The translations under genes were made by a program, and so were the position numbers. The notes below the pieces were generated by a model. That model did no database searches. It was given only the letters and a program-made list of their open reading frames with translations, and was not told where the DNA came from. This document shows, piece after piece, positions 50,361-56,645 of a stretch of DNA of 64,000 nucleotides. Within the stretch, counting starts at the first letter, position 1. Every line of letters starts with the position of its first letter. This DNA is from Longimicrobiales bacterium (GTDB lineage: Bacteria > Gemmatimonadota > Gemmatimonadetes > Longimicrobiales > Gaopeijiaceae), in assembly GCA_951828585.1 (NCBI GenBank), contig OX639991.1, positions 3,888,001 to 3,952,000 of the forward strand. The letters run 5' to 3'.

Positions 50361-53126
50361 TCAATCCCGCTCGGCGCTGGCCAGAGTGCGGGCGACCTCC
50401 TGGACCTGGTAGGTCTCGATGACGTCCCCGGCCTTGACATCGTTGAAGTTGGAGATACCGACACCGCACTCGAAGCCTTCCTTGACTTCCTTGGCATCGT
50501 CCTTGAAGCGCTTGAGCGAACCGATCTCGCCGTCGTAGATGACGACGCCGTCGCGGATCACCCGGGCATTGGCTCCACGCTGGATCGTGCCGTCCACCAC
50601 GTAGCTGCCCGCGATGGTGCCGGTTCCGCGGATCTTGAAGATCACCCTCGCCTCGGCGGCGCCCGTCACGCTCTCCCGACGCTCCGGTGCGAGCAGGCCC
50701 TCCAGCGCGGCCCTGACATCGTCCACGGCCTCGTAGATCACATCGTAGGTCTGGATGTCCACGGCCTCGCGCGAGGATGCCTGCCTCGCACCGGCGTCCG
50801 GACGGACCCGGAAGCCCACAACGACCGCGCCCGCAGTCAGCGCGAGCATGACGTCGGACTCGTTGACCGCGCCCACGCCCCGGTGGATGATCTCGACCTG
50901 TACCTCCTTGGCGGAGAGCTGCTCGAGAGCGTCGCACAGCGCCTGCACGGACCCGTCCACGTCGCCCTTAACCACCAGACGCAGCGTGCTCACGTCGCCG
51001 TCGGCCAGGAGTTGGGTGAAGTCGCCGAGCTTGATGCCGCGCTCCCTGATGCGAAGCTGTTTCTCGCGGTCCAGGCGCTGGCGGTTGCCGGCGATCGAGG
51101 CGGCCTTGTCGGCGTCCATGACCTGGAAGACATCGCCAGCCTGAGGGACGCCGGCCGCGCCCAAAATCTGTACCGGGATGCCAGGTCCCACATTGTCGAC
51201 GTGGTGGCCGCGCTCATCGAGGAGGGCCCGGATGCGGCCGTCGTAGAGGCCGGCCACGAAGTTGTCGCCAACCCGCAGCGTCCCGCTCTGCACCAGGAGC
51301 GTGGCCAGTGGGCCCTTTCCGACATCGAGCTCGGCTTCCACCACCGCGCCCACTGCATCCCGCGAAGGGTTGGCCTGCAGCTCCAGGATCTCGGCCTGGA
51401 GGAGAATCTTGTCCAGCAGGTCGTCCATGCCCTGGCCGGTCTTGGCCGACACTTCCGCTACCAGCGTGTCGCCGCCGAAGTCCTCGATGGTGACGCCATG
51501 CTGCAGGAGATCCTGGCGAACCCGGGCCGGGTCGGCCGCCTGCAGGTCGATCTTGTTGATCGCCACGATCATCGGGACGCCCGCATTCTTCGCATGGCTG
51601 ATCGCCTCGATGGTCTGGGGCATGACGGCGTCGTCGGCGGCCACGACGAGGACCACCAGGTCGGTCACGTCGGCACCCCGGGCGCGCATGGCCGTGAAGG
51701 CGGCGTGGCCGGGCGTGTCCAGGAAGGAGATGGTGCGGCTATCGTCGAGCTCGACATGGTAAGCGCCGATGTGCTGGGTGATGCCGCCCGCCTCTCCAGC
51801 CACGACGTTGGTGTCGCGGATCCAGTCCAGCAGCTTCGTCTTGCCGTGATCGACGTGCCCCATGACGGTGACCACGGGCGGGCGCGGGCGCAGATCGGCC
51901 GGATCGTCCTCCTCGATATCCTCGCCGGGTGGGAGGTAGTCGGTCTCGCGGACGGCCTGGTAGCCGAATCCCTCCAGCAGCAGCTCGATCTGATCGAAGT
52001 CGAGCCGCTGGTTGATCGTGACCATGAGGCCCATGTTGCGGAAGGCCGAACCGATGATCTCCGTAGCGCTGGCCTCGACGAGCTCGGCGAGTTCCGCGAC
52101 GGTGAGGAATTCGTTGACGCGGACGGTGGTGGCTTCGACCGCGACCTTTTCGGCAGCCCTTTCCTGCGCGGCAACGCGCTCCTCCTTGGCCGCGGCCACG
52201 GCACCCTTGCCCTTGCGGCGCTTCTTGCGGCCGCCCTTGATCTCGGCCATGACCCGCTGGATGTTCTGCTTGGCCTTGTCGCGATCGGTCCCGCGGCGGC
52301 GCTTGCCCCGCCTGCGCTCCCTCTTCTTGCGACCGTCGGAGGTGTACCCTTCGGCCTGGATCCGCACCTTGCCGCCCGGACCCGCGCTGGCCGCCGGCGC
52401 GGGTTTGCTCCCCACCGGGGCCAAGCCGCCGGGAGCGCCTTCCCGCGCGCGAGACGGCTTGGGCCCGGTACGCGCCGGCATGATCGGGGACGCTGCTTCC
52501 GCCGGCCCGATCGCGGGTTCCGGCTCCCCTTCCGGGGCTTGGGCAGCCAGAGGGGGAACGGTGGTCTCCGCTGGACCCGTATCGAGGTCGACCAATGGGG
52601 TCGCCGGCGGGGTCGGGTCGGATTTCGGCTGCACCGCTTCCACCGGCGGAGCTGCGATATCGGGCTCCTGAACTTCGGGCTCCACCGGCGCGGCCGGGGC
52701 AGCGGTTTCCAACGGCTGGTCCTCCTCGACCGGCGGCGCGGTGTCCACCGGCGCGTCCACCACACCTGCCTCCGCGGCCACCGCGGGCGCCACCGTCTCG
52801 ACTATTTCGGCATCGACCTCACCGTCCGCGGCCGCGGATTCCTCGGGTGAGACCTCGGCCGTGACGGAGGGTTCGGGAGTCGCGACCCGCCGGCGGCGGC
52901 GCCTTCGGCTCGTGGGCTTGTGCGCCTTCACCACCGCGCGCATGACATCCGCGGCTCCGCCGTGGCCCGCCCTGCGCTCCCGTTCAAGGCGCGTGCGCAC
53001 CTTGGCAACATCCGTGTCCCGGATGAGGGCGTCGGCGTGACCCACACGCACGCCCGATTCCCTCAGGAACCTGAGGAGGACATCGGCGTTGACCCTCAGG
53101 TCGACCGCAAGTTCCCGGACCCGCAT
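50361..53126 (-). CDS. infB: Translation initiation factor IF-2
   Basis: IF2 is the GTPase that brings initiator tRNA to the 30S. This 921-residue protein has an N-terminal IF2N motif (MRVRELAVDLRVNADVLLRF), a long Pro/Ala/Glu-rich linker (residues about 85-300), a second IF2N near 320-370, and a G domain with VVTVMGHVDHGKTKLLDWIR, GGITQHIGAYHVEL, SFLDTPGHAAFTAMRARGAD and IVAINKIDL. The C-terminal initiator-tRNA-binding domain follows. Its start shares one base with the nusA stop (TGATG). Confidence 0.97.
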   Translation of the reverse strand: MRVRELAVDLRVNADVLLRFLRESGVRVGHADALIRDTDVAKVRTRLERERRAGHGGAADVMRAVVKAHKPTSRRRRRRRVATPEPSVTAEVSPEESAAADGEVDAEIVETVAPAVAAEAGVVDAPVDTAPPVEEDQPLETAAPAAPVEPEVQEPDIAAPPVEAVQPKSDPTPPATPLVDLDTGPAETTVPPLAAQAPEGEPEPAIGPAEAASPIMPARTGPKPSRAREGAPGGLAPVGSKPAPAASAGPGGKVRIQAEGYTSDGRKKRERRRGKRRRGTDRDKAKQNIQRVMAEIKGGRKKRRKGKGAVAAAKEERVAAQERAAEKVAVEATTVRVNEFLTVAELAELVEASATEIIGSAFRNMGLMVTINQRLDFDQIELLLEGFGYQAVRETDYLPPGEDIEEDDPADLRPRPPVVTVMGHVDHGKTKLLDWIRDTNVVAGEAGGITQHIGAYHVELDDSRTISFLDTPGHAAFTAMRARGADVTDLVVLVVAADDAVMPQTIEAISHAKNAGVPMIVAINKIDLQAADPARVRQDLLQHGVTIEDFGGDTLVAEVSAKTGQGMDDLLDKILLQAEILELQANPSRDAVGAVVEAELDVGKGPLATLLVQSGTLRVGDNFVAGLYDGRIRALLDERGHHVDNVGPGIPVQILGAAGVPQAGDVFQVMDADKAASIAGNRQRLDREKQLRIRERGIKLGDFTQLLADGDVSTLRLVVKGDVDGSVQALCDALEQLSAKEVQVEIIHRGVGAVNESDVMLALTAGAVVVGFRVRPDAGARQASSREAVDIQTYDVIYEAVDDVRAALEGLLAPERRESVTGAAEARVIFKIRGTGTIAGSYVVDGTIQRGANARVIRDGVVIYDGEIGSLKRFKDDAKEVKEGFECGVGISNFNDVKAGDVIETYQVQEVARTLASAERD

Positions 53127-54475
53127 CAGGCCGTCTCTTCCTTCGAAGCCGCCGCGTCATCCCCGGCGCCGACCGGATCCGCTTCGACCACGGTAAGGTC
53201 TTCGATCAGGGTGAGCAGCTGCATGGCCGCGTTCTCGGTGACACCGTCCACGGCCAGGAAGTCCGCCCGGTCCAGGTCGATGATGTCGAGGAAGCTGTTG
53301 TATCCCGAGCCATTCAGCGCCGCGAGGGTCTCTCCGTCCAGCGCAAGTTCGCTGAGCGGGAAGTCCGCCGTCTCGTAGGAGTCCGTCTCCTCCTCCACGA
53401 AGACCGACATGTCCGCCCCGCGCTCCAGCCACTCGCGGGAACCGTAGAGATCGATCTGCCACCCGATCAACTGCGACGCCAGCCGCACGTTCTGGCCGTT
53501 CCTGCCGATCGCCAGCGAGAGTTGGTCCTCGTCCACGATCGCGGTGATGACCTGACGCGCCGGATCCGAATGGACCTTGGCCACGCGGGCGGGCGCGAGC
53601 GCGCGCCGGGCGAAGATCTCGGGCGTGGGGTGCCAGGGGACGATGTCGATCCGCTCGCCGCCCAACTCGCGGACGACCGCCTGGACCCGGGAGCCCTTGA
53701 GCCCCACGCAGGCACCGACCGGGTCGATGGAGTCGTCGCGGCTGTGCACCGCGATCTTGGTCCGCCCGCCAACCTCGCGCGTGGATTCCTTGATCTCGAC
53801 GATGCCCTGGTAGATCTCCGGCACCTCGAGCTTGAACAGCGCCGCGACAAAACCGGGGTCCGCGCGGGAGAGGATCAGGCGGGGACCCTTAGGCGTTTCG
53901 TCCACCTTCTTCAGGACGGCCCGGATCGACTCGCCCTGGCGAAACCGCTCGCGCGGGTTCTGTTCCTTCCAGGGAATGATGGCCTCGGCCTCGCGGGAGC
54001 GGTTCAGAATCAGGACCAGCTTGCCGCGCTCGATTTGCTGCACCTCGCCGGAGAGCAGTTCGCCCACGCGATCGGAGTACTCGTCGCGTATGCGCTGCCG
54101 CTCGCCCTCGCGCACCAGCTGCACGATCCGCTGCTTGGTGGCCATGACCGCGTTGCGGCCGAACTCGGTGAACGCGACGGGGATCTCCATCACGTCACCG
54201 ACCTCGTAGGTGGGATCGTCCCATCGCGCCTCGTCCACCGTGATCTCCGACGAAGGGTCTTCCACCTCCTCGACGACCCGCTTGAGCACGACCATCTCGA
54301 TCTCCCCAGAGACATCGTCGATGATGATCTCGGCGTTGACGTTGGGGCCGAATATGCGGGCCAGGCCGGCGTGAATTCCGTCTCTGATGAGCTCGTTGAC
54401 CTGCTCGAACTCGAGGCTCTTGGCGTCCATGATGTCGCTGAACGCCGCTCTGATCTGCTCGGTGTTTACGGTCAT
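53126..54475 (-). CDS. nusA: Transcription termination/antitermination protein NusA
   Basis: NusA binds RNA polymerase and controls pausing and termination. This 449-residue protein has the N-domain (MTVNTEQIRAAFSDIMDAKS), S1 domain (RVGELLSGEVQQIERGKLVL), KH1 (IKESTREVGGRTKIAVHSRD; DPVGACVGLKGSRVQAVVRE) and KH2 (DEDQLSLAIGRNGQNVRLAS). A C-terminal helix-hairpin-helix region (LAALNGSGYNSFLDIIDLDR) and an acidic tail follow. The ATG at 54473-54475 overlaps the rimP stop as ATGA. No ylxR gene lies between nusA and infB. Confidence 0.96.
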   Translation of the reverse strand: MTVNTEQIRAAFSDIMDAKSLEFEQVNELIRDGIHAGLARIFGPNVNAEIIIDDVSGEIEMVVLKRVVEEVEDPSSEITVDEARWDDPTYEVGDVMEIPVAFTEFGRNAVMATKQRIVQLVREGERQRIRDEYSDRVGELLSGEVQQIERGKLVLILNRSREAEAIIPWKEQNPRERFRQGESIRAVLKKVDETPKGPRLILSRADPGFVAALFKLEVPEIYQGIVEIKESTREVGGRTKIAVHSRDDSIDPVGACVGLKGSRVQAVVRELGGERIDIVPWHPTPEIFARRALAPARVAKVHSDPARQVITAIVDEDQLSLAIGRNGQNVRLASQLIGWQIDLYGSREWLERGADMSVFVEEETDSYETADFPLSELALDGETLAALNGSGYNSFLDIIDLDRADFLAVDGVTENAAMQLLTLIEDLTVVEADPVGAGDDAAASKEETA

Positions 54476-54966
54476 GACACCTTCCAATCGTGGACCAGGC
54501 GGGCTGCCGCCACCCGCGACCGTGGGACCTCGACCTCGTCACCCCCGTTCAACCGGAGCCGGATGGATCCCGTGTCGCCCTCTTCGCCGCCCAGACCCAG
54601 CAGCTCGCCCTCCAGGCGCGAACTCCGCTCGTGGAGCGTTTCCGAGCCGGTGACGGCGATCTTCCGGCCGCGGAACCGCTGGAAGTCCCTGTCCCGGGTG
54701 AGGGGGCGCTCCAGACCCGGCGAGGACACCTCGAGGACGTACCGCTCAGGTACCCTCGCGTCTTCGTCGAGCCACGCCTCGATACTCCGGCTCACCGTCG
54801 TACAGTCGTCCAGCGAGACGGGCCGGTCCAGCGCTGTGCGTTCCACACGGAGCCGGATGACCGGACGGCTGGAACTCCCCGTCCAGTCGAGCTGAACCAG
54901 CTCGTACCCCAGGCCGGAAATCCGCGTTTCCAACTCCTCCTGGATTCCTGCCCGGTTCGCTTTCAA
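54472..54966 (-). CDS. rimP: Ribosome maturation factor RimP
   Basis: RimP helps mature the 30S subunit. The 164 residues include LETRISGLGYELVQLDWTG, DCTTVSRSIEAWLDED, YVLEVSSPGLERPLTRDRDF and an SH3-like C-terminus. The best start is the TTG at 54964-54966 with AAGGGG upstream; the open frame continues back to 55098 but that stretch contains the leader hairpin. It is the first gene of the rimP-nusA-infB-DUF503-rbfA-truB-ribF unit. Confidence 0.92.
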   Translation of the reverse strand: MKANRAGIQEELETRISGLGYELVQLDWTGSSSRPVIRLRVERTALDRPVSLDDCTTVSRSIEAWLDEDARVPERYVLEVSSPGLERPLTRDRDFQRFRGRKIAVTGSETLHERSSRLEGELLGLGGEEGDTGSIRLRLNGGDEVEVPRSRVAAARLVHDWKVS

Positions 54967-54991
54967 GTCGTCACCCCTTGCGACAGTCGAT

Positions 54992-55022
54992 AAAAAAAGC
55001 GGGGGATGCCTTCTCCCCCACT
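54992..55022 (-). terminator. Intrinsic hairpin with T-run between the promoter and rimP
   Basis: Minus-strand GTGGGGG, a 9-base loop and CCCCCGC form a 7-bp stem followed by seven T residues. It lies after the predicted promoter at 55069-55098 and 26 bases before the rimP start, so it would act inside the operon leader as an attenuator. It could also catch read-through from murA. Confidence 0.75.
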
Positions 55023-55068
55023 CAAACGCCGCCGGCCTCGGCCGGTCGGTTCGGGACCACCTGACTGT

Positions 55069-55098
55069 AGTATAGCCGTGACGCAGTCTCCCGGTCAA
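55069..55098 (-). promoter_or_regulatory. Predicted sigma-70-type promoter of the rimP-nusA-infB operon
   Basis: On the minus strand TTGACC (55093-55098) and TATACT (55069-55074) are separated by 18 bp. Transcription would start near 55060 and give a leader of roughly 95 bases containing a CCGGCC/GGCCGG stem and then the intrinsic terminator. Confidence 0.65.
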
Positions 55099-55188: not shown

Positions 55189-56466
55189 CTACTCGCGGCG
55201 CTCGATCCGGGCACCCAGGGTCCGCAGCCTCTCGTCGATCCTCTCGTATCCGCGCTCGATCTGTCCCGCGTTGCGGATCAGGCTTTCGCCCCGGGCCCCG
55301 AGGGCCGCGATGAGCATGGCCATTCCGGCCCGGATGTCCGGGCTTTCCACCCTCGCGCCGTGCAGGCTCGACGGACCTACGACCACGACCCGGTGGGGGT
55401 CGCAGAGGATGATGCGGGCGCCCATGCTCACCAGCTTGTCGGTGAAGAACATCCTGGACTCGAACATCTTCTCGTGAATCAGGATCGTGCCCCGCGCGCT
55501 GGTGGCGGCGACGACGGCGATCGAGGTCAGGTCGGCCGGGAAGGCGGGCCAGGGGCCGTCATCGACCTTGGGGATGTGCCCGAAGGCGTCCATCCGGATG
55601 ACGGGTTCCGTGCGTCCGTCGACGATGAGATCGCGTCCGTCCACCCGGCAGTCGATCCCGAGCCGCCGGAAGCCGAGCAGGATCGAGTCGAGGTGAGCGA
55701 CCGGGGCGTCCTCGATCACCAGCCGGCTGCGCGTGACGGCCGCCAGACCGATGAAGGAGCCCGTCTCGACGTGGTCCGGGCCGATCTCGAAATCGGCGCC
55801 GCCCAGGGTTGGCGCACCATGGACGGTGAGATTGGAGGTCCCGACCCCCTCGATGCGCGCACCCATGGCGTTGAGGAGGTGGCAGAGGTCCTGGACGTGC
55901 GGCTCGGCGGCCGCGTTGCGAATCAGCGTTTCACCGTCGGCCATCGACGCGGCCATCACGGCGTTCTCGGTGGCCGTGACGGAGGGCTCGTCCAGGAACA
56001 TGTCGGTGCCCTTAAGGGCGGGCGCGCGGATGTCGAGACCGGTCGATGTCTCCGCCTCGGCTCCCAGCGCCTCGAAGGCGAGCAGGTGCGTGTCGAGGCG
56101 GCGGCGGCCGATGACGTCGCCCCCGGGAGGAGGCAGCGAGAGGGAGCCGAACCGGGCCAGGAGCGGTCCCGCGAGGAGGATCGACGCCCGGATCCGCTCG
56201 GAGAGCTCGGGATCGAGGTCGCCGGCCTCGACGTTCGCGGCGTTGACCACAACCGTGTTCGCACCGGTCCACGTCACGGACACCCCCAACGACTCCATGA
56301 TCTCGAGGAGGGTGTGGACGTCGCGGATCCGGGGGACGTTGCGGACGGTCACCGGCTCCGCCGACATAAGGGTCGCCGCGAGAACCGGCAGGGCCGCATT
56401 CTTGTTGCCGGCCGGCCGAATGGCGCCGCTCAGCTCATGGCCGCCCGATACGATGAAGGATGACAT
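55189..56466 (-). CDS. murA: UDP-N-acetylglucosamine 1-carboxyvinyltransferase MurA, Asp-type
   Basis: MurA transfers enolpyruvate to UDP-GlcNAc, the first committed step of peptidoglycan synthesis. This 425-residue protein has SGAIRPAGNKNAALPVLAAT (Lys-Asn pair), LLAGPLLARFGSLSLPPPGG, FPADLTSIAVVAATSARGTI (catalytic Asp) and MFESRMFFTDKLVSMGARI. In the mobile loop the usual GGCxIGxRPxDxH reads GGDVIGRRRLDTH, so Cys115 (E. coli numbering) is Asp. Asp-type MurA enzymes are active and insensitive to fosfomycin. The ATG at 56464-56466 is taken as start; the upstream frame runs into a repeat element. Confidence 0.95.
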   Translation of the reverse strand: MSSFIVSGGHELSGAIRPAGNKNAALPVLAATLMSAEPVTVRNVPRIRDVHTLLEIMESLGVSVTWTGANTVVVNAANVEAGDLDPELSERIRASILLAGPLLARFGSLSLPPPGGDVIGRRRLDTHLLAFEALGAEAETSTGLDIRAPALKGTDMFLDEPSVTATENAVMAASMADGETLIRNAAAEPHVQDLCHLLNAMGARIEGVGTSNLTVHGAPTLGGADFEIGPDHVETGSFIGLAAVTRSRLVIEDAPVAHLDSILLGFRRLGIDCRVDGRDLIVDGRTEPVIRMDAFGHIPKVDDGPWPAFPADLTSIAVVAATSARGTILIHEKMFESRMFFTDKLVSMGARIILCDPHRVVVVGPSSLHGARVESPDIRAGMAMLIAALGARGESLIRNAGQIERGYERIDERLRTLGARIERRE

Positions 56467-56504: not shown

Positions 56505-56645
56505 AGCGAAGCCTTTCAAAGATCCAATGTATACTCCACATTCCATAATGTATAGTATACTTTACATCGTGAATCGGTGAAGCGAAGCGGAAGCGCGGAT
56601 GCATCGCCGCTCAAATGACGGGGGGGTTTTGTCCAGGGGCTGCTG
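56505..56645 (-). repeat. Interspersed leader-like element (copy 3) upstream of murA
   Basis: On the minus strand: REP-like arm AGCAGCCCCTGGAC, CCCCCCGTCATTTGAGCGGC, GATGCATCCGC, GCTTCACCGATTCACGATG, and a core at 56573-56527 with ATGTA and TACAT around AGTATACT, then AAGGCTTCGCTCT. The block order equals that at 18773-18925. It ends about 40 bases before the murA start, so it is probably the murA leader or promoter region. Confidence 0.65.

Follow-up and report, generated by a model that had tools for sequence, protein, structure and literature searches.

The stretch of DNA analyzed here (64,000 nucleotides, referred to as the window) contains a rimP-nusA-infB operon on the minus strand. The region between murA and rimP comprises a promoter, a GC-rich stem (H1) and a terminator-like hairpin (H2). 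In the direction of transcription, the features of the locus are as follows:

55189–56466, minus strand: murA, the upstream gene (TIGR01072, 470.2 bits)
55069–55098, minus strand: sigma-70-type promoter, with the -35 box TTGACC at 55098–55093, an 18-nt spacer and the -10 box TATACT at 55074–55069
55029–55049, minus strand: H1, a GC-rich leader stem with a C-rich 5' arm, located by folding; it has no T-run and is not terminator-like in the window
54992–55023, minus strand: H2 with its seven-T tract, a predicted attenuator terminator, as judged by folding and conservation
54973–54979, minus strand: likely ribosome-binding site AAGGGGT, judged from the sequence
54472–54966, minus strand: rimP, with a likely TTG start at 54966
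53126–54475, minus strand: nusA (TIGR01953, 368.9 bits, cut-off 253.4)
50361–53126, minus strand: infB, coding for IF-2 (TIGR00487, 758.5 bits), downstream and under the same leader as rimP and nusA

The promoter TTGACC-18-TATACT that the first-pass annotation had placed between murA and rimP is indeed present, and transcription from it is predicted to start near position 55062. In H2, positions 55023–55014 pair with 55006–54997 and enclose a loop at 55013–55007; the seven T's occupy 54998–54992. The sequence of the hairpin is GAGTGGGGGA-GAAGGCA-TCCCCCGCTT (55023–54997, minus strand). H2 with its T tract ends 25 nt short of the TTG codon at which rimP likely starts, and this start aligns with those in relatives. 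The frame is open from 55098, but a longer RimP N-terminus reaching across the hairpin was rejected because promoter and hairpin would then fall inside the reading frame. The identity of rimP is given by a Pfam RimP_N match above cut-off, together with NCBIfam RimP matches of which the best has an E-value of 7.5e-27 and none exceeds the curated cut-off. A second promoter-like site (TTCACC-16-TATACT, 56554–56581, minus strand) is located upstream of the likely murA start.

H2 folds into 10 base pairs, including G-U pairs, with -18.1 kcal/mol and a z-score of -3.45; none of 200 shuffled sequences was as stable. The first-pass annotation had described a 7-bp hairpin with seven T's, of which the hairpin and the T's stand and the stem length is to be corrected to 10 bp. 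It had also pointed to the GC-rich leader stem. This stem is present as H1, but in the window sequence alone it has a z-score of 0.06 and is no more stable than its shuffles. A promoter scan of the surrounding 4 kb yielded two sites for 0.3 expected, which is above chance. A terminator scan of the same 4 kb yielded two overlapping matches for 1.7 expected, which is not above the shuffled sequences. Since the terminator scan alone does not beat shuffles, the case for H2 rests on its conservation.

A NusA match was obtained in 139 of 146 genomes of the window's own order (Gemmatimonadota), and 100 loci upstream of nusA were fetched from these. Six loci were left out, four for want of a RimP match (L049, L081, L098, L101) and two as incomplete (L062, L110); the remaining 94 offer a complete view of the upstream side of rimP. 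The H2 pattern matches 89 of these 94 loci as well as the window. By eye, four of the five misses (L043, L076, L126, L127, L130) carry a slightly changed hairpin. The fifth, L130 (genome G005), belongs to the family of the window and has rimP and nusA, with no hairpin found by the pattern, by eye or by the covariance model R1 described below. Looking at the promoter-hairpin order in relatives was a check that the first-pass annotation had proposed, and this order is kept: the 120 nt preceding H2 contain a promoter with a score of 9 of 12 or more in 71 of the 86 rows that could be tested, compared to 0.1% of 698 control windows (of the 90 rows with the pattern, 4 dropped out for short length or N's). 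In 89 of 90 rows the -10 box of the best-scoring pair ends 26–61 nt upstream of H2; the one deviating row is a locus containing N's.

For the alignments the loci were thinned to 73 leaders (A1, omitting L111, L112, L120 and L128 by choice) and 76 hairpins (A2, omitting L050 with its changed C arm). Across the 73 leaders the paired cells amount to 98.0% for H2, 87.0% for the outer helix of H1 and 58.8% for its inner helix. Changes on both sides of a pair were counted in 26 cells of this alignment, compared to a shuffled mean of 16.3, and 2 of 500 shuffles reached as high a count; some of the changes on both sides fall in the outer helix of H1. In the 76 hairpins the motif GTGGGG is invariant, the C arm is nearly so, and the T tract directly 3' of the stem is retained in every copy. 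A chance origin of H2 is ruled out by its conservation in the loci of the order. A repeated element is ruled out as well, as the hairpin pattern occurs only once in the window's own genome.

The specificity of the hairpin was judged with R1, a covariance model of H2 built on the 76 hairpins of the order. It gave 137 matches in 133 of the 146 genomes (E-value up to 0.1). Matches to members of the training set are expected, and the informative part is that almost nothing else matches. The great majority (128 of 137) are located 54–861 nt upstream of nusA on the same strand. The other nine comprise four that precede a RimP match on contig pieces lacking any NusA match (L272, L273, L278, L279), one after murA at a contig end (L275), another at a contig end (L274) and three weak second matches with E-values of 0.03–0.08. 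The hairpin is thus essentially a single-copy element per genome, upstream of nusA. In a sample of the phylum, 87 of 200 genomes match at E-values up to 0.01. G196 contains an extra R1 match 8.5 kb downstream of nusA, and G209 has one at the same distance. The extra G196 copy is located between what are presumably secF-like and tatD-like frames, and we take it to be an ordinary terminator.

The comparison was then widened to 40 loci belonging to other families in the class and phylum, and the approximately 700 nt upstream of nusA were searched in each for the best-scoring terminator-like hairpin. It passed the score cut at 39 of the 40 loci; on the opposite strand 3 of 40 did so, and among first-order randomised sequences 55 of 400. 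At the phylum locus L296 (G151) no hairpin was seen in the stretch searched. The stems are altered and still pair, as in GATGTGGGG..CCCCACAT, AATGTCGGG..CCCGACATT, GCGGGC..GCCCGC and GAGTGGGG..CCCCACTC. These hairpins aligned poorly by automatic means, and we draw no pair-by-pair claim from that alignment. A promoter precedes the hairpin with a score of at least 8 in 34 and at least 9 in 22 of the 39 loci (controls: 7.3% and 1.9% of 675 windows).

An attenuator at this position has been described before. Naville and Gautheret (2010, PMC2965389) called the rimP-leader the most ubiquitous attenuator and characterized it by a conserved G-rich/C-rich stem, by the lack of an antiterminator in most species and by NusA as the best candidate for the sensor. 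The window element fits this family in all but the exact loop-side pair. Both have a premature terminator-like hairpin with a U-stretch between the promoter and rimP-nusA-infB. Both have a G-rich 5' arm and a C-rich 3' arm conserved in sequence (the invariant GTGGGG in the order), and both lack a visible antiterminator, in most published species there and in the leaders of the order here. The distance of 25 nt between terminator and gene lies within the 4–130 nt given in that paper. In the window stem GTGGGGGA..TCCCCCGC, however, the GGG/CCC part is present and the c-g pair of the published GGGc..gCCC is absent; this pair is found in the class relatives L249, L251, L252 and L290. A further difference is that in Gemmatimonadota the element also precedes nusA where rimP is gone.

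The Rfam family RF01770 (rimP) occupies the same gene position as the window element. Its model has no match in the window's genome and none in the window at the gathering cut-off, and among 14 control genomes it matches that of E. coli only. In a scan of the window no Rfam family reached its gathering cut-off; a match to the Xoo2 sRNA (E-value 0.97, 15.6 bits, cut-off 45) was taken as chance. The metY-rimP-nusA-infB leader of E. coli likewise has two tandem hairpins before rimP, there with T-runs, the second being G-rich on its 5' arm. It differs by metY and further promoters upstream, and H1 of the window has no T-run, although at least four T's are located between H1 and H2 in 31 of 88 leaders of the order. 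Two terminators in tandem, like those of gammaproteobacteria, may thus be present in some of these leaders. The nusA leader of B. subtilis resembles the window in that an intrinsic terminator in the 5' leader of a nusA operon controls read-through (PMC12288461); NusA dependence is experimental in that report, and for the window it is proposed.

Based on these results we propose, with a probability of roughly 0.68, that H2 is a premature terminator which attenuates rimP-nusA-infB, with NusA as the sensor in a feedback loop. The operon's own promoter would start a leader of approximately 95 nt, and RNA polymerase would reach the intrinsic terminator H2 after approximately 65–70 nt. Part of the transcripts would end there and the remainder would read through into rimP-nusA-infB. 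Plentiful NusA would stimulate termination at H2 and so reduce expression of the operon that encodes it, and scarcity of NusA would raise read-through. Termination at H2, its partial extent and the role of NusA as sensor are what we infer. The proposed sensor, nusA, would also be the main target; infB or genes after it are equally possible as targets. NusA is favoured as sensor because of reports on three other leaders. NusA of B. subtilis controls its own synthesis by stimulating termination in the nusA leader (Mondal 2016, as reported in PMC12288461). In S. agalactiae, RNA-seq showed transcription ending upstream of rimP, 31 nt past the start site, and autoregulation by NusA was proposed (PMC4448216). 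In E. coli the terminators t1 and t2 are located upstream of rimP (PMC6511841).

The probable attenuator of the first-pass annotation is borne out in that the order of promoter, hairpin and gene is kept through the order and the class, approximately once per genome and independently of murA. Such an arrangement could also be a fixed, leaky terminator that lets a constant share of transcripts pass, without any feedback. Hairpin and U-tract of H2 are strong and no sensor structure is seen. NusA-dependent terminators of B. subtilis are described as often having distal interruptions of the U-tract (PMC8060035). H2 with its good U-tract is unlike many of these and might terminate without NusA. The stem sequence, on the other hand, is conserved beyond what pairing demands (the invariant GTGGGG and most of the C arm), although a conserved sequence could itself serve a set efficiency, and the nusA leader of B. 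subtilis is reported to be autoregulated (PMC12288461). Altogether we consider a constant read-through share unlikely.

If the leader is regulated, the signal might be read by the RNA itself, with H1 and H2 exchanging partners as in an antiterminator, perhaps in response to another factor. Most leaders retain H1, some of its pairs being changed on both sides, and gammaproteobacterial leaders with an upstream terminator and a potential antiterminator have been described (PMC2965389). H1 is variable, however, and has no T-run in the window. Moreover, pairing of the G-rich 5' arm of H2 with upstream RNA had a mean of 0.52, compared to 0.58 in shuffled RNA, and was above the shuffles in 37 of 88 leaders. 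As the arm is sequestered no more than in shuffled RNA, no conserved antiterminator was found, and an RNA switch appears very improbable to us. The lack of a conserved antiterminator, as in the published family, makes a protein the likely sensor.

RimP could be this protein, either directly or through ribosome assembly. It is the product of the first gene in most genomes and was named as a possibility by Naville and Gautheret (PMC2965389). A number of genomes lack the gene. RimP_N (PF02576) is absent from all nine genomes of genus g4 examined and from G032, and present in three comparison genomes. In the phylum sample it is missing in 23 of 200 genomes at E-values up to 0.01 (G251, G263 and G281, which have no RimP_N match at this threshold, are taken to be among the 23). 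The C-terminal family PF17384 is missing in all 23 rimP-less candidates tested and was found in five of five comparison genomes, in three of them below the family's cut-off. Four of the 23 phylum genomes without RimP_N (G171, G174, G181, G249) also have no NusA match, and in G281 nusA is located 211 nt from the contig start. Seventeen show the hairpin directly before nusA. G222 (L284) contains an intact H2 426 nt before nusA and a rimP remnant, i.e. a partial RimP reading with 44% identity to the G211 protein and part of it missing; G222 is a draft genome and an assembly fault is possible. Four more g4 genomes (G087, G102, G123, G139) are alike in having no rimP and the hairpin before nusA. 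H2 is thus kept in 21 of 21 rimP-less genomes with a visible region, 54–219 nt before nusA, and a promoter scoring at least 8 of 12 precedes it in 17 of 17 rimP-less loci tested.

On a NusA tree of 85 rows the presence of rimP requires four changes (bootstrap range 4–4): genus g4, G032, part of genus g64 and a group of g80, g96, g98, g100 and g107. The count of changes itself does not separate loss from gain. Because most lineages, the outermost rows among them, have rimP, the natural reading is that of four losses of rimP in the phylum. The retained hairpins show that neither the sensor nor the target need be RimP, and feedback by RimP or via RimP on ribosome assembly is therefore hardly tenable. 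When rimP is deleted from within the operon, the leader stays behind by default; persistence of the leader thus demonstrates independence from RimP and not sensing by NusA. That RimP is not needed nevertheless favours feedback by NusA, as reported for B. subtilis and inferred for E. coli. The NusA feedback suggested by the first-pass annotation is hence supported indirectly, by the hairpin staying at nusA through four rimP losses, by the lack of a conserved antiterminator and by the B. subtilis report (PMC12288461).

H2 might instead be the terminator of murA or of whichever gene is located upstream. It would stop murA transcripts too, and murA lies upstream in the window and in most of its family. 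The promoter precedes H2, however, and the hairpin remains with nusA. Among the 89 hairpin-bearing loci of the order, 65 have a detected murA and 24 do not; of the latter, 17 belong to families f2 and f3, with no murA in the stretch examined, and a few are truncated by a contig end. The leader is accordingly tied to rimP-nusA rather than to murA, which leaves a murA terminator barely credible. Hairpins also pause polymerase, and sequence cannot distinguish this from termination, but a NusA-stabilised pause, a processing site or a 5' stability element as the main role of H2 is highly implausible given the T tract kept after the stem in all 76 aligned copies.

For the attenuator with NusA as sensor, the rimP losses serve as a natural experiment on whether RimP or NusA is the protein to which the element responds, a point left undecided in 2010. 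Because four natural rimP deletions each keep the switch right before nusA, we lean towards regarding the widespread "rimP-leader" as really a nusA element, in which NusA would sense and rimP would be a mere passenger between switch and target. The attenuator family itself is already known; what is new is the persistence of the hairpin at nusA after loss of rimP. In searches of the open-licence literature we found no paper describing the element in front of nusA in genomes that lack rimP. The attenuator is also extended here through a phylum for which the literature searched gave no reported case, and to whose member in the window the Rfam model is blind. The rimP-less lineages provide ready-made minimal leaders. 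In genus g4 (L101 = G037, L098, L269, L276) a frame of approximately 100 codons, charged and helical-looking, is located between murA and the nusA leader.
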